From Candidatus Poseidoniales archaeon (GTDB lineage Archaea > Thermoplasmatota > Poseidoniia > Poseidoniales > Thalassarchaeaceae), in contig JAPOFX010000001.1 in NCBI GenBank assembly GCA_028283505.1, positions 72,197 to 136,196 on the forward strand: a DNA stretch of 64,000 nucleotides, written 5' to 3'. The notes below the pieces were generated by a model. It made no database searches, was not told the origin of the DNA, and saw only the letters and a program-made list of their open reading frames with translations. Below are positions 6,172 to 64,000 of the stretch, in pieces. Within the stretch, counting starts at the first letter, position 1, and each line of letters starts with the position of its first letter. Position numbers and translations under genes: made by a program.

Positions 6172-6777
6172 CCGCTCCACGTATACCGCTACCACTCCAT
6201 CCGAGGTAACTCTGACCAAAGCCCCCAGTCCCTCATTGCTGAGTCCCCTTGTCGACATCTTGAGTTGCTGCCCTGCCAACTCCCATTTCCCGCCAATGAC
6301 ATTAACTTTCATGCAACTTGATAATGCAAAGACCGAGAATTTTCGACCCTTCTCGATAAGCTCATTGAAACCATTATTCGAGGGGCTCGAAAGATGAAAA
6401 ACTCCAGATTCGTAATGCATCCTAACATTCATTCCCTCTGGGGCCTCGTTCAACGCCGCGAAGGCGCCAAAGACATGTCCATAGTCTCCGCCCTCAACAC
6501 CAACGACATCAACCTCTTCAAATCCCAGGGAATTAACGTAGTGAATTGATTTTGAGAGGTCACTCTTACTTTGATCGTCGAGAAAAATAGATCGATCCTC
6601 CCACTTGGAGTGTTCCACAGAATCCAAGTCTCCAAGGACCTTGAAGACATCATATCCCATCGATGAGGCCTTATCAGCACCACCGTCAACTCCGAAAATT
6701 AGAGATGTAGAACTCATGATTTCTCCAACGATAGACTCACTAGGTAGTGCCCCGTTGCACCAAAGTATCGCCTTCAT
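6163..6777 (-). CDS. Thiamine pyrophosphokinase-like protein
   Basis: 204 residues from an ATG. The order of motifs follows thiamine pyrophosphokinase: LIFGVDGGADKA (residues about 26-37), VLGDLDSVE with the metal-binding GDxDS, DQSKSDLSKSIHYV equivalent to DQ-x-TD, GVEGGDYGHVFGA where typical enzymes have GGRxDH, and a C-terminal beta domain with the thiamine-binding 'STRGLSNE'. It would transfer pyrophosphate from ATP to thiamine. The GGRxDH loop is altered (Arg and the Asp of DH are missing), so activity or substrate may differ. It lies four bases downstream of the M29-like gene on the same strand, suggesting co-transcription. Confidence 0.75.
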   Translation of the reverse strand: MKAILWCNGALPSESIVGEIMSSTSLIFGVDGGADKASSMGYDVFKVLGDLDSVEHSKWEDRSIFLDDQSKSDLSKSIHYVNSLGFEEVDVVGVEGGDYGHVFGAFAALNEAPEGMNVRMHYESGVFHLSSPSNNGFNELIEKGRKFSVFALSSCMKVNVIGGKWELAGQQLKMSTRGLSNEGLGALVRVTSDGVVAVYVERSR

Positions 6778-6781
6778 TCAA

Positions 6782-7813
6782 TCACCGCTTTCTCGCAGTT
6801 ACCTTTCCCTCTAAGACTAAGTCGACGTCTTCCAATTCCACGGTCGGCTTCAACATGACTCCCCTAATTTGGTAGCCTACTCTTGAACTTCCCCCTAAGG
6901 ATGAGTTATCTCCTATCGCGATGTACGAGGAGCCTCTGACGACCTGATCCTCCAGTTGGCTACCGGATAGTCGCGATTTTGGGTTCATACCGAATCCGAA
7001 TTCCGCTAGGGTTCCGACCTTCTCAATTTGAGATATTTTCACAGAGGATCTAATGGAATCCATCTTAGAAATAAGGTCCTCAGAAACAGAGCCCCCAGAA
7101 ATTTCGATTACGTTGCCATCTTCGACCAATAACGTCACTGGCTCATCCAATAATTCACCGTCAAGTGACCCGTCAATTACAATCTTCCCATTAGCACTCC
7201 CTTCCTTGGGAAGAACGAATACCTTACCTGTCGGGAGATTCGTTATCTGTCCAGGCCGATTGCAAATTCCATTGTCCTCAAGTATCCACCTTGCTCCTGT
7301 CGTGAAAGTAAAATCAGACCCCGAGGATGACCTCACTCTTACGAGGGTCCTCTTCCTTAGTAGGCTATTGAGTCCAGATATCTCTTTTTTTATCGCTCCA
7401 TAATCCGCAGTCATCCCTCCCTTGGATAGAATTTCTGATGTTATACCTGGCATAGATGCAATTCTCGCGTTCTCTCTTGAAGCGTTCCTCCTAGCTCTGG
7501 TGTGAGTCAGAGAGCTCTTTGTGGCGATCAGGACAACGTCCTGTTGCCTCATCAGCTCAGCAACGGGATCTGGAGGCTCTGCTCCTTTCTTGTGGGAGGG
7601 AGGCATCATCATTAGCAGAACCCTGTCAGTTACCTCGGCAGCCGCTTCATAGAGAGATTGCCCTACTTCTGAGCAGTGGGGGTCAGTGACAATAAGTACG
7701 TGTTCTGAGGGCCTAATCTGCATACAAGTCCTGACAACAGACCTAGAAGAGGTCAGCATCGCTTCTGCCAATTCGTCAGAATCAGCGGCACTTATTTCCC
7801 CCTCCTCTGTCAT
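6782..7813 (-). CDS. M29-aminopeptidase-fold protein lacking most metal ligands
   Basis: 343 residues from the ATG at 7813; a TTG at 7864 would add 17 residues. The family signature is visible: 'NLPTGKVFVLPKEG' (about 193-206), 'LAEFGFGMNP', 'SYIAIGDNSSLGG' and 'MLKPTVELEDVDLVLEGK' at the C-terminus. This is the layout of M29 metallo-aminopeptidases (AmpS/aminopeptidase T) and the related NicX dioxygenases. Compared with those, the Glu of NLPTGEVF is Lys197, the His of HIA(L/I)G is Tyr297, and the HxD pair is Gln315/Arg317; only Glu271 remains. Two-metal peptidase chemistry therefore looks lost, and the protein may be a pseudoenzyme or have a new ligand. It is probably co-transcribed with the thiamine pyrophosphokinase-like gene. 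Confidence 0.7.
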   Translation of the reverse strand: MTEEGEISAADSDELAEAMLTSSRSVVRTCMQIRPSEHVLIVTDPHCSEVGQSLYEAAAEVTDRVLLMMMPPSHKKGAEPPDPVAELMRQQDVVLIATKSSLTHTRARRNASRENARIASMPGITSEILSKGGMTADYGAIKKEISGLNSLLRKRTLVRVRSSSGSDFTFTTGARWILEDNGICNRPGQITNLPTGKVFVLPKEGSANGKIVIDGSLDGELLDEPVTLLVEDGNVIEISGGSVSEDLISKMDSIRSSVKISQIEKVGTLAEFGFGMNPKSRLSGSQLEDQVVRGSSYIAIGDNSSLGGSSRVGYQIRGVMLKPTVELEDVDLVLEGKVTARKR

Positions 7814-56270: not shown

Positions 56271-57458
56271 CTATATTTTACCATTTATCATCACAATATC
56301 CCCGGCCCAGTGAAAAACTAGTATCTCATCATTAAACCCTTTACCAAAACCAACTATCATTCCTCCTGAATTTCCTAGATGCCTCTCATTCCATTTTCCA
56401 TCCGTTTCTTCAAGTATCCAGATTGATCCAGTACAAAAGTCGCCATACAGATACCCGTCCCGAAGATTCTCAGGCCCCCAATCCATCCAGTATCCACCAG
56501 TTATGGAGCAGTTTCCATTTTCATGAGGGTAAGCCAATAATGGGTCAGTCAATCCATTTTCACTGTCATCTCGTGTACTTGAACAGCTCATTTCCTCTTG
56601 GAATTCCTGGAACCCTTCCCTCTCACTCCATCCCAAATTAGCTCTTTCAATCAGAGAGACCAGATTTACTTCCTCCCAGCAGTTCTGCCCAACGTCGGCA
56701 ATCCATAAATCATTAGAGTTTCCAATGTCGAAGCGCCATGGATTTCTCAACCCACTGTGAAGTATGTACGGGTCTCCCGTTGAATTATCAAGAACCGCCA
56801 AAACCTCATTATCCCTGAATTCAAACAGGAGAATCGTGCCCAGGGGACTGGACTGGTCCTGCCCGTGAGAGTGAGGATCATTTGCAGATCCACCATCGCC
56901 AAGCCCCCAAAGGTAACTGCTGTTACCTGCGTGGACAAGGAATCCCCCATTGTGATTCCTGTATGGTTGCTCAATTCTCTTAAGGACTGTAATTGAATCT
57001 GCATCAATCAAGCCGTTATCTCCAACTTCAGCCGATGACAAAACCAAGTCAGACTGATTTTCCCCTTCGCAAGTACCATCCTCAACATACGACAACAGAA
57101 CCAATTTGGAATTTTCAAAATCCTCATCAAAAGAAAACCCCAGCAATCCCTGCTCCATATGGCACCTACTAACTATCCCACTGAGATCTGCAACATCTTC
57201 CAAATTTTGTCCATCCCAAGATTTTATGATCCCGCTCAGGAATATGACCCACATTTTTCCATCCAGAGGGTTCAGTAGGGAATGATGCGCAGTCTCTCCA
57301 AGCTGCAGAACAGTTTGACATTCAAGATCGTAACTCATCTGGCATCCATCAGAGATTGGGTCAGGCCACTCAAAGCCATCATCGGAATCTCCTCCAAAGC
57401 ATCCTATGCTCAGTGAGGATAAAAAAAGCAGTAAAGTCAACACCATTGCTGATTTCAT
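56271..57458 (-). CDS. Secreted lipoprotein resembling soluble glucose/sorbosone dehydrogenase
   Basis: 395 residues from an ATG. The signal peptide ends in the lipobox SIGC (Cys20). The rest follows the six-bladed propeller family of PQQ-dependent sugar dehydrogenases and HIPL proteins: 'MEQGLLGFSFDEDF', 'RNHNGGFLVHAG' (the HNGG motif, with the active-site His), 'LGDGGSANDPHSHGQ', 'GLRNPWRFDI', 'DVGQNCWEEVN' and 'SITGGYW'. It would oxidise a sugar outside the cell, if PQQ or another cofactor is available. Eight or more cysteines suggest disulfides. It lies on the same strand as the transferrin-like gene (53 bp after its stop) but has its own AT-rich leader. Confidence 0.8.
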   Translation of the reverse strand: MKSAMVLTLLLFLSSLSIGCFGGDSDDGFEWPDPISDGCQMSYDLECQTVLQLGETAHHSLLNPLDGKMWVIFLSGIIKSWDGQNLEDVADLSGIVSRCHMEQGLLGFSFDEDFENSKLVLLSYVEDGTCEGENQSDLVLSSAEVGDNGLIDADSITVLKRIEQPYRNHNGGFLVHAGNSSYLWGLGDGGSANDPHSHGQDQSSPLGTILLFEFRDNEVLAVLDNSTGDPYILHSGLRNPWRFDIGNSNDLWIADVGQNCWEEVNLVSLIERANLGWSEREGFQEFQEEMSCSSTRDDSENGLTDPLLAYPHENGNCSITGGYWMDWGPENLRDGYLYGDFCTGSIWILEETDGKWNERHLGNSGGMIVGFGKGFNDEILVFHWAGDIVMINGKI

Positions 57459-57511: not shown

Positions 57512-58576
57512 TTAAGAGAAGTATGCCTGTATTCCCGGGACATTGGAAACTGCATCTCCGTAGGTTCCTAAGTGGGTATCAGCATTGGTTGCTACCATTC
57601 CATCGGTGTTTAGTAGATCACTGAGGATTTCACGGCCCTCTGCATCTTCGTTTAATGAAACCAATGCATTCTGCACCTTCTCCACAGTCTCGATGTCCAT
57701 GGTGTCCGGGTTGTAGAGAGCTGGGTGGCTCGGTGCCTTACCAAACGAGGGGAGCATTACAAGCTCATCAAGATCCATGCACCAGTCGTCTCCATCTGCA
57801 ACTCCGTCGTCGTTCTCATCGCAGTACAAGCGGTAGGCGGTATCCTTGACCAGTGCTACATCTCCATAACCTGTCATCATGCACTTCATGGCTCCCTTGT
57901 ATCCGGAGTATTGGGTTCCTCCCTCTGGGATGCTCGAATCCTCACTGAAGAAGTTGGTCACTGTCGCTCTGAGGGAGTCGATATCATTGGGGTCTCCGAT
58001 AACATCCGCGTATCCATTCCCGATCAAGTATCCCATCGGAATGAGCATTCCCGCGCTCTTTAGCCATCCTGTGTGACAGGACTTCTTGCCCTCCATCAGT
58101 GCGAATGGGTCGGTGTTCGGATCATCATCCAGGTGGGCTGCTGCTATGTCTGAGTCAGCCTTGACCCATGCAGCGGCATTGTAGTAAACCCTTCCATCGG
58201 ACTTCCACTCGGCCGCCAGAACATCCAACTCGTATACTTCCCATGCTAGCCATGCGGCGGCGCCGTCAACGAATCCGATATCAGCATTACCCTTGTCGAT
58301 GGCCTCGATGATACCGCCAGATCCGGTGACCGGGTAAATCTCAACGTCCATTCCGGTCAGAGAACTCATCTTGTCAGCTAGATGCTGAGGATTTTTATCC
58401 CATATTAGGTAGGTATCCTGTACCTCAAAAGCTATCGTCAGACAATTTTCTTCATCCTCACAGGATTCGTAGTTTACGTCAAAAATCAGATACAAAACTG
58501 TGGCTGAGAATATAATCCCTGCCATCAGGAACGCTTTATTCGTAACTGCCCAACTCTTGATTTCCTCTGTTCTCAT
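57512..58576 (-). CDS. Transferrin-lobe-like iron-binding protein, membrane anchored
   Basis: 354 residues from an ATG. An N-terminal helix (about 13-32) anchors it; the rest is a type-2 periplasmic-binding fold. The match to one transferrin lobe is detailed: Asp104 in FVDGAAAW, Tyr131 in VYYNAAAWVK, GKKSCHTGWLKSAGM (163-177), 'VTNFFSED', Tyr226 in SGYKGAMKC, GDVALVKDTA and His284 in APSH. These fall at human transferrin Asp63, Tyr95, Tyr188 and His249; Thr169 matches the anion-binding Thr120, while Arg124 is replaced by Lys173. Cys167/Cys232 match a conserved disulfide. Automated calls may give phosphonate-binding PhnD, a related fold. Fe3+ capture at the cell surface is inferred. A DtxR-like box lies at the promoter. 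Confidence 0.82.
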   Translation of the reverse strand: MRTEEIKSWAVTNKAFLMAGIIFSATVLYLIFDVNYESCEDEENCLTIAFEVQDTYLIWDKNPQHLADKMSSLTGMDVEIYPVTGSGGIIEAIDKGNADIGFVDGAAAWLAWEVYELDVLAAEWKSDGRVYYNAAAWVKADSDIAAAHLDDDPNTDPFALMEGKKSCHTGWLKSAGMLIPMGYLIGNGYADVIGDPNDIDSLRATVTNFFSEDSSIPEGGTQYSGYKGAMKCMMTGYGDVALVKDTAYRLYCDENDDGVADGDDWCMDLDELVMLPSFGKAPSHPALYNPDTMDIETVEKVQNALVSLNEDAEGREILSDLLNTDGMVATNADTHLGTYGDAVSNVPGIQAYFS

Positions 58577-58607
58577 GGCGTGGTCGTACAGAGGCTCAAT
58601 GATAAAA

Positions 58608-58623
58608 TTTAGGGTAGCCTAAA
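58608..58623 (-). promoter_or_regulatory. DtxR/IdeR-like operator of the transferrin-like gene
   Basis: TTTAGG-GTAG-CCTAAA (plus-strand reading), a perfect 6-bp palindrome with a 4-base spacer, 32 bases before the minus-strand ATG at 58576. It matches the TTAGG-N4-CCTAA core of the DtxR/IdeR iron box and would overlap the transcription start. The TATA candidate AGTATACT (58634-58641) lies directly upstream and overlaps the stop codon of the preceding gene. Confidence 0.7.
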
Positions 58624-58633
58624 CTCTTTCGGA

Positions 58634-58641
58634 AGTATACT
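58634..58641 (-). promoter_or_regulatory. TATA box of the transferrin-like gene
   Basis: AGTATACT lies about 58-65 bases before the ATG at 58576, so transcription should start near 58610, inside the palindromic operator. It also overlaps the last codon of the GDPD gene. Confidence 0.5.
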
Positions 58642-59216
58642 CAAAAACCAAAAAACCATTTCATCTGAGCGAAAATCCACATAGTCTTAGACTTAGAAGC
58701 TCGAAACAGGTCAATCCTATGCCTACCAACTCTAACGAGCTTGATATCTGACTCATGAGCCCTTTCGCGCCAATAATCCCTGGATTCTGATGGGAACGAA
58801 TCGATGAACCTACTCGGAGTGCACATCAACATCCATTTTTCATTACATTCTACGGCGTCGAAAACCTCATTCCTACAGTCATCGGAATGGACATGCTTGA
58901 TTTCAATCATTACTCGCTCGTCTCTCTTATTCAGCTCCTCGACTATTTCTCCGAATCTTGGAATTCTAATTCCAAGGGAGAGACCTGCCCTGCAGATATC
59001 ATTAAATTTCATGTTCTTGGTATGAACTAACTCTCCCTGATCCATGATCGAATCATCGTGAAATACGAATAGGACGCCATCACTAGACTCTCTAACGTCA
59101 AATTCCCAATACCTAAATCTTCGGTCCGAAACTAGTTCATAAGAACCGAGAAGACCTTCAAGCGTATTTTCCAGTTTCGTGCCAGAGGCTCCAAGCCTAT
59201 GACCTAGATTTTTCAC
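58641..59216 (-). CDS. Glycerophosphodiester phosphodiesterase-family protein
   Basis: 191 residues from a GTG that overlaps the gar1 stop codon (GTGA arrangement), implying coupled translation. The GDPD barrel motifs are present: LGHRLGAS (His6, Arg7), 'LENTLEG', 'YWEFDVRESSDG', 'FVFHDDSIMD' with the second catalytic His, and 'RVMIEIKH'. It is shorter than the usual ~240 residues, and the C-terminal strands are reduced. It would release glycerol phosphate from lipid headgroups; in archaea the likely substrates are glycerol phosphodiesters from lipid breakdown or diet. Confidence 0.82.
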   Translation of the reverse strand: MKNLGHRLGASGTKLENTLEGLLGSYELVSDRRFRYWEFDVRESSDGVLFVFHDDSIMDQGELVHTKNMKFNDICRAGLSLGIRIPRFGEIVEELNKRDERVMIEIKHVHSDDCRNEVFDAVECNEKWMLMCTPSRFIDSFPSESRDYWRERAHESDIKLVRVGRHRIDLFRASKSKTMWIFAQMKWFFGF

Positions 59217-59668
59217 CTTCTGCCACGCCCTCTGGAATGCCTTCTAGCCCCTCTTCCGTTGGATTTCTGACCCCTTCCCCCGCGTGGCCCCGAGTTCCTG
59301 TTCGTACCTTCCCGTTTTTTTCTGCCCCCTCCGTTGCGAGCTCTATTGACTTGCCCTCGGGGCTTACCACTTCTTCCCCTCTGGTATTTCTCGCGTCCCT
59401 TCGCTTCCCCATGAGTCCTCTTATTGCCTGATTTACGTGGAGCAATCTCAACCGGAGACCCTATCGCGCGCTCGACCTCTACTCCCCTTAAAATTGGAAA
59501 AACATGAACCAAACCCGAATCAACTGGTCCCAAAACTGTGTCTACTCTTCCTAAAACTTTACCACCTTTGACACGAATGGTATCCCCGAGATTGGGTGAC
59601 CTTCCCTCAAAGGATACCAATAGTCCCCTCATGTGAGAGATGTTCTCAACTCTTCCTGAAAATGTCAT
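59213..59668 (-). CDS. gar1: H/ACA ribonucleoprotein protein Gar1 with RGG-type tail
   Basis: 151 residues from the ATG at 59668, one base after the stop of the surface-protein gene; a TTG at 59701 is rejected. The Gar1 core covers about 1-80, with 'VLGRVDTVLGPVDSGLVHVF' equivalent to the family's G-x-V-(D/E)-x-x-x-GP motif. The remaining ~70 residues are almost entirely Gly, Arg, Lys, Asn and Ser (GGGRKKREG, GPRGGRGQKSNGRG, HSRGRGRR). Such glycine-arginine tails are known in eukaryotic Gar1, while archaeal Gar1 is usually only the core. It acts with Cbf5, Nop10 and L7Ae in pseudouridylation of RNA. The GDPD gene overlaps its end. Confidence 0.87.
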   Translation of the reverse strand: MTFSGRVENISHMRGLLVSFEGRSPNLGDTIRVKGGKVLGRVDTVLGPVDSGLVHVFPILRGVEVERAIGSPVEIAPRKSGNKRTHGEAKGREKYQRGRSGKPRGQVNRARNGGGRKKREGTNRNSGPRGGRGQKSNGRGARRHSRGRGRR

Positions 59669-59669
59669 A

Positions 59670-61700
59670 TCAGATTCTCCTTCTAGGTAGGATAACCCCA
59701 AGTGAGAATGCGATAAACAAACTCATCAATCCACTAGCTGGAAGCATTCCTGGAGATTCATCGGCTGGTTCTTGTGGGCCGATAACGACCTGTTCGAATA
59801 ATCGAGAATTATTCACAATCATCTCCACTTCTGAGCATTTTCCAGATTCATCACATCCCTCCACGATTACCCGGTGCTCTCCAGATTCCCAAAGTGTGAA
59901 ATCGATATTAGGGGTCGACCAAGAGTTTCCAGATGCGCTCACAGAACCTGCCATCGCACCGTTTAATTTCATCGTGAAAGAGACGGATTCTCCATCTGGA
60001 TCGCTGTATTGCCCTCTCATCGACCAACAGCATCCTTCCCACTCAGAATTTGAGATGGAAATCAAGGGAGGTGTACTTTCTTTCACAATCCCCAAGATGT
60101 AAGTGTAGTCCATCGTGAAGACCTCGTCCCCTGTGACAATGATACGAACATCTACCAGACCAGGGAGCATGTTGGAAGAGTCTCCCACTACACCAATAGA
60201 GCTCGATGAAATAATTTCCACTGTCCCTATTTCCTGATTAACAGATCCTTGGACTAATTGAGCCACGACACTCAATGCTGGCCAGTTGGCTTTCGGATCA
60301 ATAGTAATATTATGGGGATTGGTTAACGTATCGGAATCAGAGTAAACTGAGAATGGTACTCCGATATGCCAGGTCCTTTCACTTGTGGCTAAGCCGTCCC
60401 CATCAGTCGCTTGACATGTGACATCTAGAGTGCCAGATTCTGGAATAACCGCCCTAATTGATCTGTCAGGCGCCTCATCCAACTCCATACCTGATCCATC
60501 ACGGCATGATATTTGCAGGTTTGAGGCACCATTCTCATCGTAGAACCATCTTGAGACTGCATCGTTCCAATCCGCCCAAATCACATCCCCAGAGAATGGG
60601 ACAGGAAACCATGTGCCATTCACCGGCGCATAATCTGTCCAGATGGGAGGGGCTGGTTCTGGAATTGGTTCGGTAGTGAAGTCGAAAAACAAATCTTCTC
60701 CCAACGGCCAATCTTCCCTATACCCATTAGGGCTTAGCTCCAAAGTCAGTGTTCCATCTTCGTTTTCAACTAGATTGAAGGATGATGATCCGTCACCGAT
60801 ACAACTCCCAACCGTCGGCGCCAATCCTCCAGCAGTAGACTCGTTCAATCCAACATCCCTGCCTTCACATTCATCCCACATTTCCAAACGCAGGTCCTCC
60901 ATCTCAGGGAAAGTAAAGTCAAATCTTGCTCCTGACAGGTTCGAGGCATTTATTGAGAATGTGAATTTGCTTGGGTCATCTACCCCAGAGATGGATAGCG
61001 TGGCATTGAGCCAGAGCTGAACCCTGCATTCGTCCATTCCAATATCGAATGAGACTTCGGTGTCGCAATCCCTATCTTGGTCGGGAATTACCGGAACTTC
61101 ATTGCATTCGCCTCCGATGGATGAAGTACAGCTCCTCATTTGGGAATGTCGAGGAGGCACTATGTTCCATTCCTCAATCTCTACGCCGTCCTCCTCCCAG
61201 CTAGTGTTCTTCCAATCGATTCCAACTCCTCCTCTGTGTGCCGGACCATCTCTGAGCCCTATTCTGGTCAAGGTGTGTTCGATGCATTCACTCGCCAGAG
61301 CTCTGAAGAACTCCCTCTCATCCGTGGAAAACCAGCCATCTCCTCCCTTGTTAGGGTCCAGTAATTCCATGAATTCATCCATAGTGAGCCTCAGTTCATC
61401 GGCCAGAGTTCCATTGACCCAAGCTACTGCTTGGACGTTGGCACTTTTCCAATCTTCGTCAATAACGATTTCAAAAGTAGCCTTTGAGTACTCAAACATA
61501 TTCTCAAACGTTATCGACCCACACTGCTCCTCTAGGCTACCCCCGCCTCCACCAATCTGAAATATTTTATTTGGTACCGAATCTAGATCATTATTCGCGC
61601 CAATATCGCTCAAAGGCATGGAAATAATCGATAATGCGACCACAAAGCAGAACCACGGAGCCTCGGATATGCCACCCATATGTGCATTTTGAAGGGTCAT
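59670..61700 (-). CDS. Secreted PKD/Ig-like surface protein with C-terminal sorting-type signal
   Basis: 676 residues from an ATG (Met8 also possible); signal segment about 14-34. Middle regions are Asp/Cys-rich, with several cysteine pairs ('QMRSCTSSIGGECNE', 'QDRDCDTEVSFDIGMDECRV') and Ig/PKD-like folds ('VTCQATDGDGLATSERTW', 'GQYSDPDGESVSFTMKL'). The C-terminus is a tripartite signal: 'ESPGMLPASGLMSLFIAFSLG' then VILPRRRI, i.e. short motif, hydrophobic helix and Arg cluster, as in proteins processed by sortases or archaeosortases. Function unknown. It is the first gene of a minus-strand run with gar1 and GDPD. Confidence 0.75.
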   Translation of the reverse strand: MTLQNAHMGGISEAPWFCFVVALSIISMPLSDIGANNDLDSVPNKIFQIGGGGGSLEEQCGSITFENMFEYSKATFEIVIDEDWKSANVQAVAWVNGTLADELRLTMDEFMELLDPNKGGDGWFSTDEREFFRALASECIEHTLTRIGLRDGPAHRGGVGIDWKNTSWEEDGVEIEEWNIVPPRHSQMRSCTSSIGGECNEVPVIPDQDRDCDTEVSFDIGMDECRVQLWLNATLSISGVDDPSKFTFSINASNLSGARFDFTFPEMEDLRLEMWDECEGRDVGLNESTAGGLAPTVGSCIGDGSSSFNLVENEDGTLTLELSPNGYREDWPLGEDLFFDFTTEPIPEPAPPIWTDYAPVNGTWFPVPFSGDVIWADWNDAVSRWFYDENGASNLQISCRDGSGMELDEAPDRSIRAVIPESGTLDVTCQATDGDGLATSERTWHIGVPFSVYSDSDTLTNPHNITIDPKANWPALSVVAQLVQGSVNQEIGTVEIISSSSIGVVGDSSNMLPGLVDVRIIVTGDEVFTMDYTYILGIVKESTPPLISISNSEWEGCCWSMRGQYSDPDGESVSFTMKLNGAMAGSVSASGNSWSTPNIDFTLWESGEHRVIVEGCDESGKCSEVEMIVNNSRLFEQVVIGPQEPADESPGMLPASGLMSLFIAFSLGVILPRRRI

Positions 61701-61730
61701 TGGACATGATTCTATCGTACGAAATTAAAG

Positions 61731-61746
61731 TTTAGGGCTCCCTAAA
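61731..61746 (+). promoter_or_regulatory. DtxR/IdeR-like operator of the Fea1-like gene
   Basis: TTTAGG-GCTC-CCTAAA, same half-sites and spacer as 58608-58623, immediately before the TATA candidate GATATACT (61750-61757) and 44 bases before the ATG at 61790. A repressor bound here would cover the TFB/TBP site. Confidence 0.72.
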
Positions 61747-61777
61747 TTAGATATACTCTATCCCGTTCGGACCATCC

Positions 61778-61783
61778 AAGGAG
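61778..61783 (+). promoter_or_regulatory. Ribosome binding site of the Fea1-like gene
   Basis: AAGGAG, six bases before the ATG at 61790, a strong Shine-Dalgarno match that fixes this start. Confidence 0.6.
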
Positions 61784-61789
61784 ATTAAC

Positions 61790-63034
61790 ATGAATCTGAA
61801 AATAACAAGCACAATGATGACAATGATGTTTCTGCTAAGCGCACTCGCAGGGTGCACTGGCGGAGATGAAGCAGTTGACCTGGACGACTCAGACGGAGGC
61901 TACGATTACGCCTCTAACGTCGACAATCACCGAATGCTGATGGGAGATGTCTGCGATATCAAGGACCTATCCGGAGCATACGACTGGGACGGTGTCATGG
62001 ACATATATGAGAACGGAAAGCACGCAGAGAAGTCTGACGGCTCCTACAGGACGCTGATGGCCTTCGCTGACGCATCCGGTAAGAATCACGCATACGATGA
62101 TTACTATGGCGCAGATGGCTCATGGAACGACTTCGTATCTGCTGCTATCGAGGGCACAGGACCATTCGCAGGCGAGTCTGACACTGTCAGGGATCAAGCC
62201 ACAGAGAAGGGAATCCAGAACGGTGTGATGACTGCATACGCTATCCACGAGCTCAACGCAGCCATCATCAAGGCTGAAGCGGGAAACTGGGGGCCTGATG
62301 ACGCTCAGCACGCATGGGATGAGGGATGGGCATTCTACCACGGACCAGATGATGCAGATGCAGACTACGACGGATGCGGGCCATTCGCTACCGCAGCAAA
62401 AAGAGGTGGAAACTTCGGAACCGGAGATGCGACAAACATCGCTACTCTAGCAGCAATGAACGACGGACTTACAGCATTGAAGAATGAAGACATGCAAGGA
62501 GTAATCGACGCACGTGACGAAGTTCTGAAGAACGTGGTAATCGTTTACTCACAAGCTTCCGTTAGGTATGCATCGAAAATGACAGATGACCTAGCCGCTG
62601 GAGATACTGCAGACTACGACAAGCACCAGGCAGAGGGTCACGCCTTCTACCGGGTAATTGAGGCATATGTCGCCGAGCACACGTCAATCTGCTACAACAT
62701 GGTCTCTCACTCGGTCTCATCGGATAGCTCACAGGCATCTTGCGAGGCATACATGTATCTAGAAAACTACACATCTCCAAACGACCCGAATGGAGAGGAG
62801 TTTACTGGTTGCTATAATTCGGTGACACACGCTCAGCACGAGGGAATGTCTCAGGAAGAGTGCGAGGCTTTTGGATGGTATGCTAATTACTATAATAACA
62901 AGATTCTCGAAATCTTTGATCTGAAAAATGATGGAGATGAAACAGCAGATTACGAAGCTGATGTTCGCTCATACTTACAGCCAGTCTGGGATGCATTTGG
63001 CATCACAGCTGACGATATTGGAACACTCCAGTAG
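61790..63034 (+). CDS. Fea1-like low-iron-inducible lipoprotein
   Basis: 414 residues from an ATG. The lipobox LAGC gives a lipid-anchored Cys22, followed by an acidic linker. Two related helical halves each contain an E-G-x-A-F-Y motif: WDEGWAFYHG (176-185) followed by 'CGPFATAAKRGGNFGTGDA', and AEGHAFYRVIEAYVA (281-295). This pattern matches Fea1 (PF07692), the algal low-iron and high-CO2 induced periplasmic protein that promotes iron assimilation. Residues 301-370 are an insertion with two copies of a Cys repeat, 'CYNMVSHSVSSDSSQASCEA' and 'CYNSVTHAQHEGMSQEECEA'. It lies between two transferrin-like genes and has an iron-box-like operator. Assignment rests on motifs recalled from the family. 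Confidence 0.65.
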   Translation: MNLKITSTMMTMMFLLSALAGCTGGDEAVDLDDSDGGYDYASNVDNHRMLMGDVCDIKDLSGAYDWDGVMDIYENGKHAEKSDGSYRTLMAFADASGKNHAYDDYYGADGSWNDFVSAAIEGTGPFAGESDTVRDQATEKGIQNGVMTAYAIHELNAAIIKAEAGNWGPDDAQHAWDEGWAFYHGPDDADADYDGCGPFATAAKRGGNFGTGDATNIATLAAMNDGLTALKNEDMQGVIDARDEVLKNVVIVYSQASVRYASKMTDDLAAGDTADYDKHQAEGHAFYRVIEAYVAEHTSICYNMVSHSVSSDSSQASCEAYMYLENYTSPNDPNGEEFTGCYNSVTHAQHEGMSQEECEAFGWYANYYNNKILEIFDLKNDGDETADYEADVRSYLQPVWDAFGITADDIGTLQ

Positions 63035-63065
63035 GTAACTGAAATCTAAAGATATAGCCAAGGCT

Positions 63066-63097
63066 CTGTAGTGCTACTGCAGATGACACAACTTTTT
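63066..63097 (+). terminator. Possible terminator after the Fea1-like gene
   Basis: A small hairpin GTAG-TG-CTAC (63068-63077) is followed by a T5 run at 63093-63097, 59 bases after the stop. Weak. Confidence 0.25.
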
Positions 63098-63238
63098 GTT
63101 GGCAGGGGGCGCATTAGCGTCATACACACACCCAATCATCAATTTCGAATCCGCAGTTCGGAACGCTCCCTGTCAACACCTAGAAAATGGAGATTAGAAA
63201 CTAAAAGCATCCAAATACCACAATCCTTGGTCATTAGC

Positions 63239-64000
63239 ATGAAGTCATCAATAGCTCATCCAAAGCCGTCAACAGGGGGCGGGGTTAGAGCTTCAGCGAT
63301 GGCTGTTTTGATCATCTCATGCGCGGTCTCCGGTTGCTTAGGCCAAGATAAACCTGAAGAGGAAAGAACTTCTATCACAATCGCCTACGAGGTTTCTCCA
63401 AACATGGTCGATCCTGGCTTGAGTCCACAGATTTTCTCGGACTACATATCCGAAATCTCGGACTTTGATATTACAATAAACATTGTTGACTCTAAGGTGG
63501 CCATGTTAGAGGCACTTAGGTTTGGAAATGTCGATGTTGCGTACATGGACAGTGGTAACGCGTGGATAGGGTGGAACCAATATGGAATAGAGGTTCTAGC
63601 CGCCGATCAAAAATCTGATGGAAGATCTTACTATAACGCAAACGCATGGGTATTGAATGACAGTGACATGGCAATCGCGCATCTTGACTCAGATCAGCTC
63701 ACTAACCCATTTTCCCTCATGGAAAGTAAGGTGTCATGTCATACGGGTTGGCTAGACTCAGTTGGAATGATGCTTCCAATGGGCTTCCTGCTAGGTCTGG
63801 GATATGCAAATATTGTGGGGGATCCAAACGATATCGAATCACTCAGAGGAACAATCCATGGATACTTTAGTCAGGACTCTTCGATCCCTGATCCGGGATC
63901 GCCGCTCTATGGGCTTTCAGGAGCACTAAAATGCCTCTCAGAAGGGTCGGGGGACATAGCATTCGCCAAGGAAAACTCAATCCAAGATTTCTGTCCAATT
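63239..64000 (+). CDS. Transferrin-lobe-like lipoprotein, paralogue with altered ligands, 3' partial
   Basis: 254 residues visible; the frame runs through the end of the window. Start chosen at the ATG 63239, giving a lipoprotein signal with VSGC (Cys33); the frame is open back to an ATG at 63083. It aligns with the protein at 57512-58576 almost without gaps, with identical positions for Asp104, Tyr131 (SYYNANAW), 'SCHTGWLDSVGM' (166-177) and GDI near 239. It differs at two key sites: Leu226 (LYGLSGALKC) replaces the ligand Tyr, and Asp173 replaces the anion-binding Lys/Arg. The His ligand position lies beyond the window. It may bind another metal or be a partner of the first. Confidence 0.8.
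   Translation, partial: MKSSIAHPKPSTGGGVRASAMAVLIISCAVSGCLGQDKPEEERTSITIAYEVSPNMVDPGLSPQIFSDYISEISDFDITINIVDSKVAMLEALRFGNVDVAYMDSGNAWIGWNQYGIEVLAADQKSDGRSYYNANAWVLNDSDMAIAHLDSDQLTNPFSLMESKVSCHTGWLDSVGMMLPMGFLLGLGYANIVGDPNDIESLRGTIHGYFSQDSSIPDPGSPLYGLSGALKCLSEGSGDIAFAKENSIQDFCPI

Follow-up and report, generated by a model that had tools for sequence, protein, structure and literature searches.

Our analysis of a 64,000-nucleotide stretch of a Candidatus Poseidoniales archaeon genome (Marine Group II, MGII; bases 72197–136196 of contig 11, below called the window; the genome is 1.3 Mb and 89% complete) indicates that the locus at its end is very probably a metal-regulated ferric-iron ATP-binding cassette (ABC) importer whose binding protein is a homologue of transferrin. 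The locus includes open reading frames (ORFs) A, a one-lobed transferrin-like protein, B, an FEA1-related lipoprotein, and C, a two-lobed transferrin-like lipoprotein. ORF C leaves the window, and the sequence past this point was read from the whole genome (locus L006), where it is followed by genes for a PhnC-like ATPase and then a PhnE permease. From this gene order the locus appears to encode an ABC importer whose binding protein is of the transferrin type, and we infer strongly that its substrate is iron.

An earlier note, made from the sequence of the window, had described A, B and C as a surface Fe3+ capture system and had supposed that such a combination might be undescribed in archaea. 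All three genes are where it had put them, and the iron-capture reading survives the Pfam, PDB, fold, ligand, co-occurrence and operator tests given below; it was too narrow in seeing capture only, as a PhnC/PhnE-type ABC importer follows. A literature search for archaeal or prokaryotic transferrins found none, and the papers on MGII archaea that were consulted make no mention of transferrin and contain no iron-uptake system of the transferrin-importer kind.

Sequence and fold of the transferrin-like proteins

ORF A matches the Pfam Transferrin family (PF00405) at 1.4e-16 (61.1 bits, cut-off 20.3) and the Phosphonate-bd family (PF12974) at 3.6e-24, also above cut-off, and its top sequence matches in the PDB are lactoferrins (5e-22). 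Both Pfam families are matched by 33 of 33 aligned family members (with Transferrin E-values up to 0.001). When a family profile of 33 relatives is compared with the PDB the top 60 matches are all transferrins, the best at 4.2e-45 with an alignment that spans the iron ligands, and the sequence of one relative by itself (L059) finds human melanotransferrin at 1.1e-38. The first 32 Foldseek matches of the AlphaFold2 model of ORF A (predicted local distance difference test score, pLDDT, 90) are transferrins (2e-15, template-modelling (TM) scores 0.5–0.6), after which come PtxB and AioX with similar E-values and higher TM-scores by target length. ORF A lies far below the cut-offs of the PhnD models (28.8 versus 261.1 bits for TIGR03431 and 39.2 versus 112.05 bits for TIGR01098), and in an hhalign comparison of the family with E. 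coli PhnD the N-terminal half aligns but the ligand region does not do so convincingly. The earlier note had set transferrin against PhnD as the decisive comparison; the two are not exclusive, as ORF A and its relatives match both. Because both Pfam families and both folds are matched, the family sits, as judged from sequences and the predicted structure, between the PhnD-type binding proteins and the transferrins. A scan of viral contigs found no relative.

The positions that form the iron and anion sites of human transferrin (D63, Y95, T120, R124, Y188 and H249 in the human numbering, with the motifs checked on lactoferrin alignments) read D-Y-T-K-Y-H in ORF A, where D104, Y132, Y226 and H284 correspond to the four iron ligands and T169 and K173 to T120 and R124. 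Nearly all of the one-lobed proteins keep this string, as do most two-lobed ones in each of their lobes, and it is found as well in Marine Group III (MGIII) proteins and in two of three from other Thermoplasmatota families; a cysteine pair that matches transferrin C118–C194 is invariant in the family. E. coli PhnD reads G-Y-G-S-H-D at the same positions in a rough alignment, with one of the four iron ligands in common. The pattern suggests that ORF A-type proteins bind Fe3+ with carbonate as the anion. The site might instead take another trivalent metal or a ferric chelate, and not hydrated Fe3+ with carbonate, as would suit the lysine instead of Arg124 and the ability of transferrins to take several other metals (metal-substituted structures are among the Foldseek matches). 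We consider this quite improbable, since flavodoxin, FecCD and FEA1-like genes are associated with the family (see below) and iron is the trivalent metal for which there is a general nutritional need.

The transporter, its distribution and the phosphonate annotation

Transferrin matches are present in 167 of the 194 genomes of the order, in some MGIII genomes and in a few other Thermoplasmatota. PhnC- and PhnE-like genes adjoin the transferrin-like gene in most of the 39 loci examined, and such neighbours are also seen in MGIII and in three other families of Thermoplasmatota. The records L102, L126, L147 and L158 are labelled bacterial; their loci are MGII-like and carry the archaeal palindrome (described in the next section), and we take the records to be probably mis-binned or contaminated, not cases of gene transfer.

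Could the usual annotation be correct, so that the locus encodes a PhnCDE-type importer of phosphonate, phosphite or phosphate and its likeness to transferrin reflects shared ancestry only? The PhnE permease of the locus passes the TIGR01097 equivalog (230.2 bits, cut-off 216.7), Phosphonate-bd is matched by all members of the binding-protein family, the fold of ORF A matches PtxB too, and Tully 2019 (PMC6336850) includes phosphonate transport in the core genome of MGII. Set against these are the very low PhnD-model scores of ORF A and the conservation across the family of iron-ligand positions that E. coli PhnD, in the rough alignment, largely lacks, together with the palindrome that the locus has in common with FEA1-like genes and the DtxR-family gene that adjoins a haloarchaeal relative (both below). 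In addition, the carbon-phosphorus (C-P) lyase protein PhnJ was found in 0 of 116 genomes, a search that did not extend to phosphonatase-type and other phosphonate routes. We therefore think a phosphonate importer very improbable. In 29 of 29 genomes searched, coordinate comparison places each full-scoring PhnE gene next to one for a transferrin-like protein. The MGII "core phosphonate transporter" is therefore probably the transferrin-linked importer locus. As to other iron importers, FecCD is strong in about 20 of the 116 genomes and absent from that of the window.

A palindrome common to the locus

The earlier note had seen one palindromic operator before two of the genes, and both copies are exact (TTTAGGGTAGCCTAAA and TTTAGGGCTCCCTAAA, where 0.05 sites are expected in the window). 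The sequence TTTAGGNNNNCCTAAA occurs three times in the 1.3-Mb genome at no more than one mismatch, once each before ORF A, ORF B and the ATPase gene. Across 603 kb of related loci the exact sequence is found at 70 sites, compared with 0 in eight Markov simulations and at most 2 for each of the 59 other permutations of its arms. Most of the sites fall in the 100 bp before an A-, B-, C- or PhnC-type gene; since the loci had been selected because they hold such genes, the count measures association with the genes and not genome-wide specificity. Individual genomes have 0–8 sites (60 genomes), some of them at other loci. One DtxR-family repressor (L171:1303–1953) was found in the genome of the window, and TTTAGGNNNNCCTAAA is similar to part of the DtxR box; by this analogy the repressor may bind it.

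Plasmid NC_019976.1 of Natronococcus occultus (L229) carries a DtxR-family gene followed by a frameshifted transferrin-like gene, then an ATPase gene and finally phnE. The transferrin-like gene there (6615–7639) is unannotated and split over two frames, and the host is a cultured haloarchaeon.

FEA1-related lipoproteins

ORF B, which the earlier note had called a Fea1-like lipoprotein, matches Pfam Fea1 (PF07692) at 1.7e-19 (70.6 bits, cut-off 25) and the curated NCBIfam equivalog NF038033, "FEA1-related lipoprotein", at 350.8 bits (cut-off 250); its AlphaFold2 model (pLDDT 77) has no Foldseek match in the PDB with E below 0.7. FEA1-related genes occur in 62 of the 194 genomes, often a few kb from transferrin-like genes, and the co-occurrence that the earlier note had proposed to look for in related genomes is thus present. 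In genome G105 (L054, 157–7383) an FEA1-like gene heads a run of genes for a flavodoxin, a large secreted protein, Peripla_BP_2, FecCD and an ATPase, which resembles an iron-starvation set. The FEA1-like gene also heads a run with large secreted protein, Peripla_BP_2, FecCD and ATPase genes in L055 and L086.

Two-lobed proteins and the loss of iron ligands

ORF C, predicted earlier as a second, divergent transferrin-like lipoprotein, matches Pfam Transferrin at 9.7e-17 (61.6 bits, cut-off 20.3) and proves to have two tandem lobes, which was beyond what the window showed. The six site positions read D-Y-T-D-L-D in its N lobe and G-S-T-P-E-T in its C lobe, so that the ligand set is incomplete in both. 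Because most ligands are lost in both lobes, ORF C itself is probably not a classical Fe3+-carbonate binder. In our tree it falls in one clade with ligand-complete two-lobed proteins, and its ligand loss is therefore secondary.

Having seen that ORF A keeps the ligands that ORF C lacks, and before further genomes were fetched, we fixed the prediction that two-lobed proteins are degenerate only where an A-type paralogue exists. All three genomes predicted to be complete (G136, G099 and G124) were complete, and the two-lobed proteins were degenerate in 8 of the 8 predicted-degenerate genomes that had such a gene in the fetched stretch (G113 showed none there). Among 40 genomes, at least one lobe is degenerate in 20 of 20 with the paralogue, while both sites are intact in 18 that lack it (a D-to-E change, present in three, being scored as kept); the exception is G126, which is 80% complete and has a degenerate protein without an A-type paralogue. 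The association has a Fisher value of 1.5e-10 that is inflated by shared descent, and about half of the 40 genomes had already been seen when the idea was formed, so the correlation is a strong pattern and not an independent test. G118 (L211:1547–6083) has two two-lobed genes in tandem, one ligand-complete and the other degenerate. The two-lobed protein of G048 (L070:2565–5012; 815 amino acids) has about 100 additional residues within its N lobe.

It is conceivable that ORFs A and B capture iron while the ORF C transporter of this genus, its ferric site lost, imports another metal or an iron chelate. The altered positions of ORF C are what this would predict, and the change tracks the presence of the A paralogue. 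On the other hand the ATPase gene carries the same palindrome as A and B, and in several loci (L051, L053 and L055) ORF A, ORF B and PhnC/PhnE stand without an ORF C in the neighbourhood, so that ORF A presumably can serve the transporter; we judge an altered substrate unlikely.

A model for iron uptake and points that weigh against it

We propose that a transferrin-type lobe would close on Fe3+ outside the cell through an Asp, two Tyr and a His, with the anion held at a helix N-terminus by a Thr and a Lys (Thr120 and Arg124 in human transferrin). The Fe3+-binding lobe would be supplied by ORF A in the genus of the window; in most other lineages it would belong to the very protein that is linked to the transporter. 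Once loaded, it would pass its iron, directly or through ORF C, to the PhnE-type permease, with the PhnC-type ATPase driving import, and ORF B may concentrate iron at the surface or hand it over. When iron is sufficient, a DtxR-family repressor on TTTAGGNNNNCCTAAA would silence three units: A, B-C and PhnC-PhnE. In the genus of the window the work would be split, ORF A retaining the iron site and ORF C, which has lost it, being probably an adaptor or docking subunit.

Several points weigh against an iron importer of this kind. The anion site keeps its Thr but has Lys for Arg124 across almost the whole family, so the transferrin arginine is missing; the permease, as noted, scores as a PhnE; and the protein encoded beside the transporter here is the one without most of the iron ligands, which makes delivery from ORF A to ORF C a conjecture. 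The repressor is assigned from the likeness of the palindrome to DtxR boxes, and the palindrome is absent from the Natronococcus locus. FeoB was found in 0 of 116 genomes, which is in favour of the importer; as the survey of other iron importers took in FeoB and FecCD but not Nramp, ZIP, FTR1 or FbpABC, the locus is a candidate for the main route of iron uptake.

Relationship to known systems

The archaeal proteins have in common with animal transferrins (PF00405; serotransferrin, lactoferrin and melanotransferrin) sequence homology, fold, the four ligand positions, the anion-site Thr, the C118–C194 pair and the existence of one- and two-lobed forms; they differ in being membrane-anchored or lipoproteins, in being encoded with an ABC importer, and in the Lys for Arg124. 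With the PhnCDE/PtxABC importers (PF12974, TIGR01097) they share the gene set, permease family and binding-protein fold, but here the binding protein is under the PhnD cut-offs and has transferrin ligands, PhnJ is missing from the 116 genomes and the operator is of metal type. ORF B belongs to the FEA1-related lipoproteins and so is allied to FEA1/ISIP2a phytotransferrin (PF07692, NF038033), from which it differs as an archaeal lipoprotein beside a transferrin-type importer; its model has no PDB fold match. In FbpABC and FutABC the binding protein holds Fe3+ and passes it to an ABC permease; the present locus has another binding-protein family and a PhnE-type permease.

A review (PMC7676907), citing McQuaid 2018, traces ISIP2a and transferrin to a common origin among the phosphonate-binding proteins. 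The link between transferrin and these proteins is thus already published, and what is new here is the archaeal operon, the regulon, the two-lobed forms and the reannotation. In our tree the two lactoferrin lobes group together (100/99), which points to a separate origin of the two-lobed state, although the placement of lactoferrin is unreliable (short rows, long branches and 47% of columns filled). We tentatively suggest, with more doubt than confidence, that the iron-binding subunits of archaeal PhnCE-type importers are the ancestors, or else the nearest sister group, of the eukaryotic transferrins, so that transferrin would have begun as an importer binding protein, its oxyanion site becoming a carbonate site, and the two-lobed form would be independent in archaea and animals. 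The archaeal family also offers a prokaryotic, transporter-coupled relative in which to study the origin of transferrin.

MGII rank with the most abundant archaea in sunlit ocean waters, and large parts of these waters are iron-limited. If our interpretation is true, the order-wide "phosphonate transporter" label should become "iron", and phnCDE counts from metagenomes and metatranscriptomes in which MGII are included would have to be read afresh. Archaea might then also have carbonate-dependent iron binding, for which a sensitivity to ocean acidification has been proposed in diatoms.

Features of the locus

Positions of the genes and palindromes (window numbering except where L006 is given; aa, amino acids)
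Feature	Position	Strand	Basis
ORF A, one-lobed transferrin/PhnD-like binding protein, N-terminal membrane anchor, 354 aa	57512–58576	-	Pfam, PDB sequence, AlphaFold2
Operator-like palindrome TTTAGGGTAGCCTAAA, 32 bp upstream of ORF A	58608–58623	.	exact site search
Operator-like palindrome TTTAGGGCTCCCTAAA, 44 bp upstream of ORF B	61731–61746	.	exact site search
ORF B, FEA1-related lipoprotein, lipobox LAGC, 414 aa	61790–63034	+	Pfam, NCBIfam
ORF C, part inside the window; two-lobed transferrin/PhnD-like lipoprotein (full length 710 aa)	about 63239 to 64000 (window end)	+	Pfam
ORF C, full length	L006:8436–10568 (end would be 65371 if the window were extended)	+	
Third palindrome copy, just outside window, before ATPase gene	L006:10616–10631		
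PhnC-like ATPase, outside window	L006:10642–11355		
PhnE permease, outside window	L006:11352–12269		

Between ORFs A and B lie genes for a GDPD-like protein, an RGG-tailed ORF and a large secreted protein, in which we saw no link to iron. ORF A is followed directly, on its own strand, by a gene for a glucose/sorbosone dehydrogenase-like secreted protein (56271–57458). Just past the window there is a gene for an 803-amino-acid secreted protein (L006:13783–16191) with EF-hand and low-density lipoprotein (LDL)-receptor class A repeats and a weak PGF-CTERM match.

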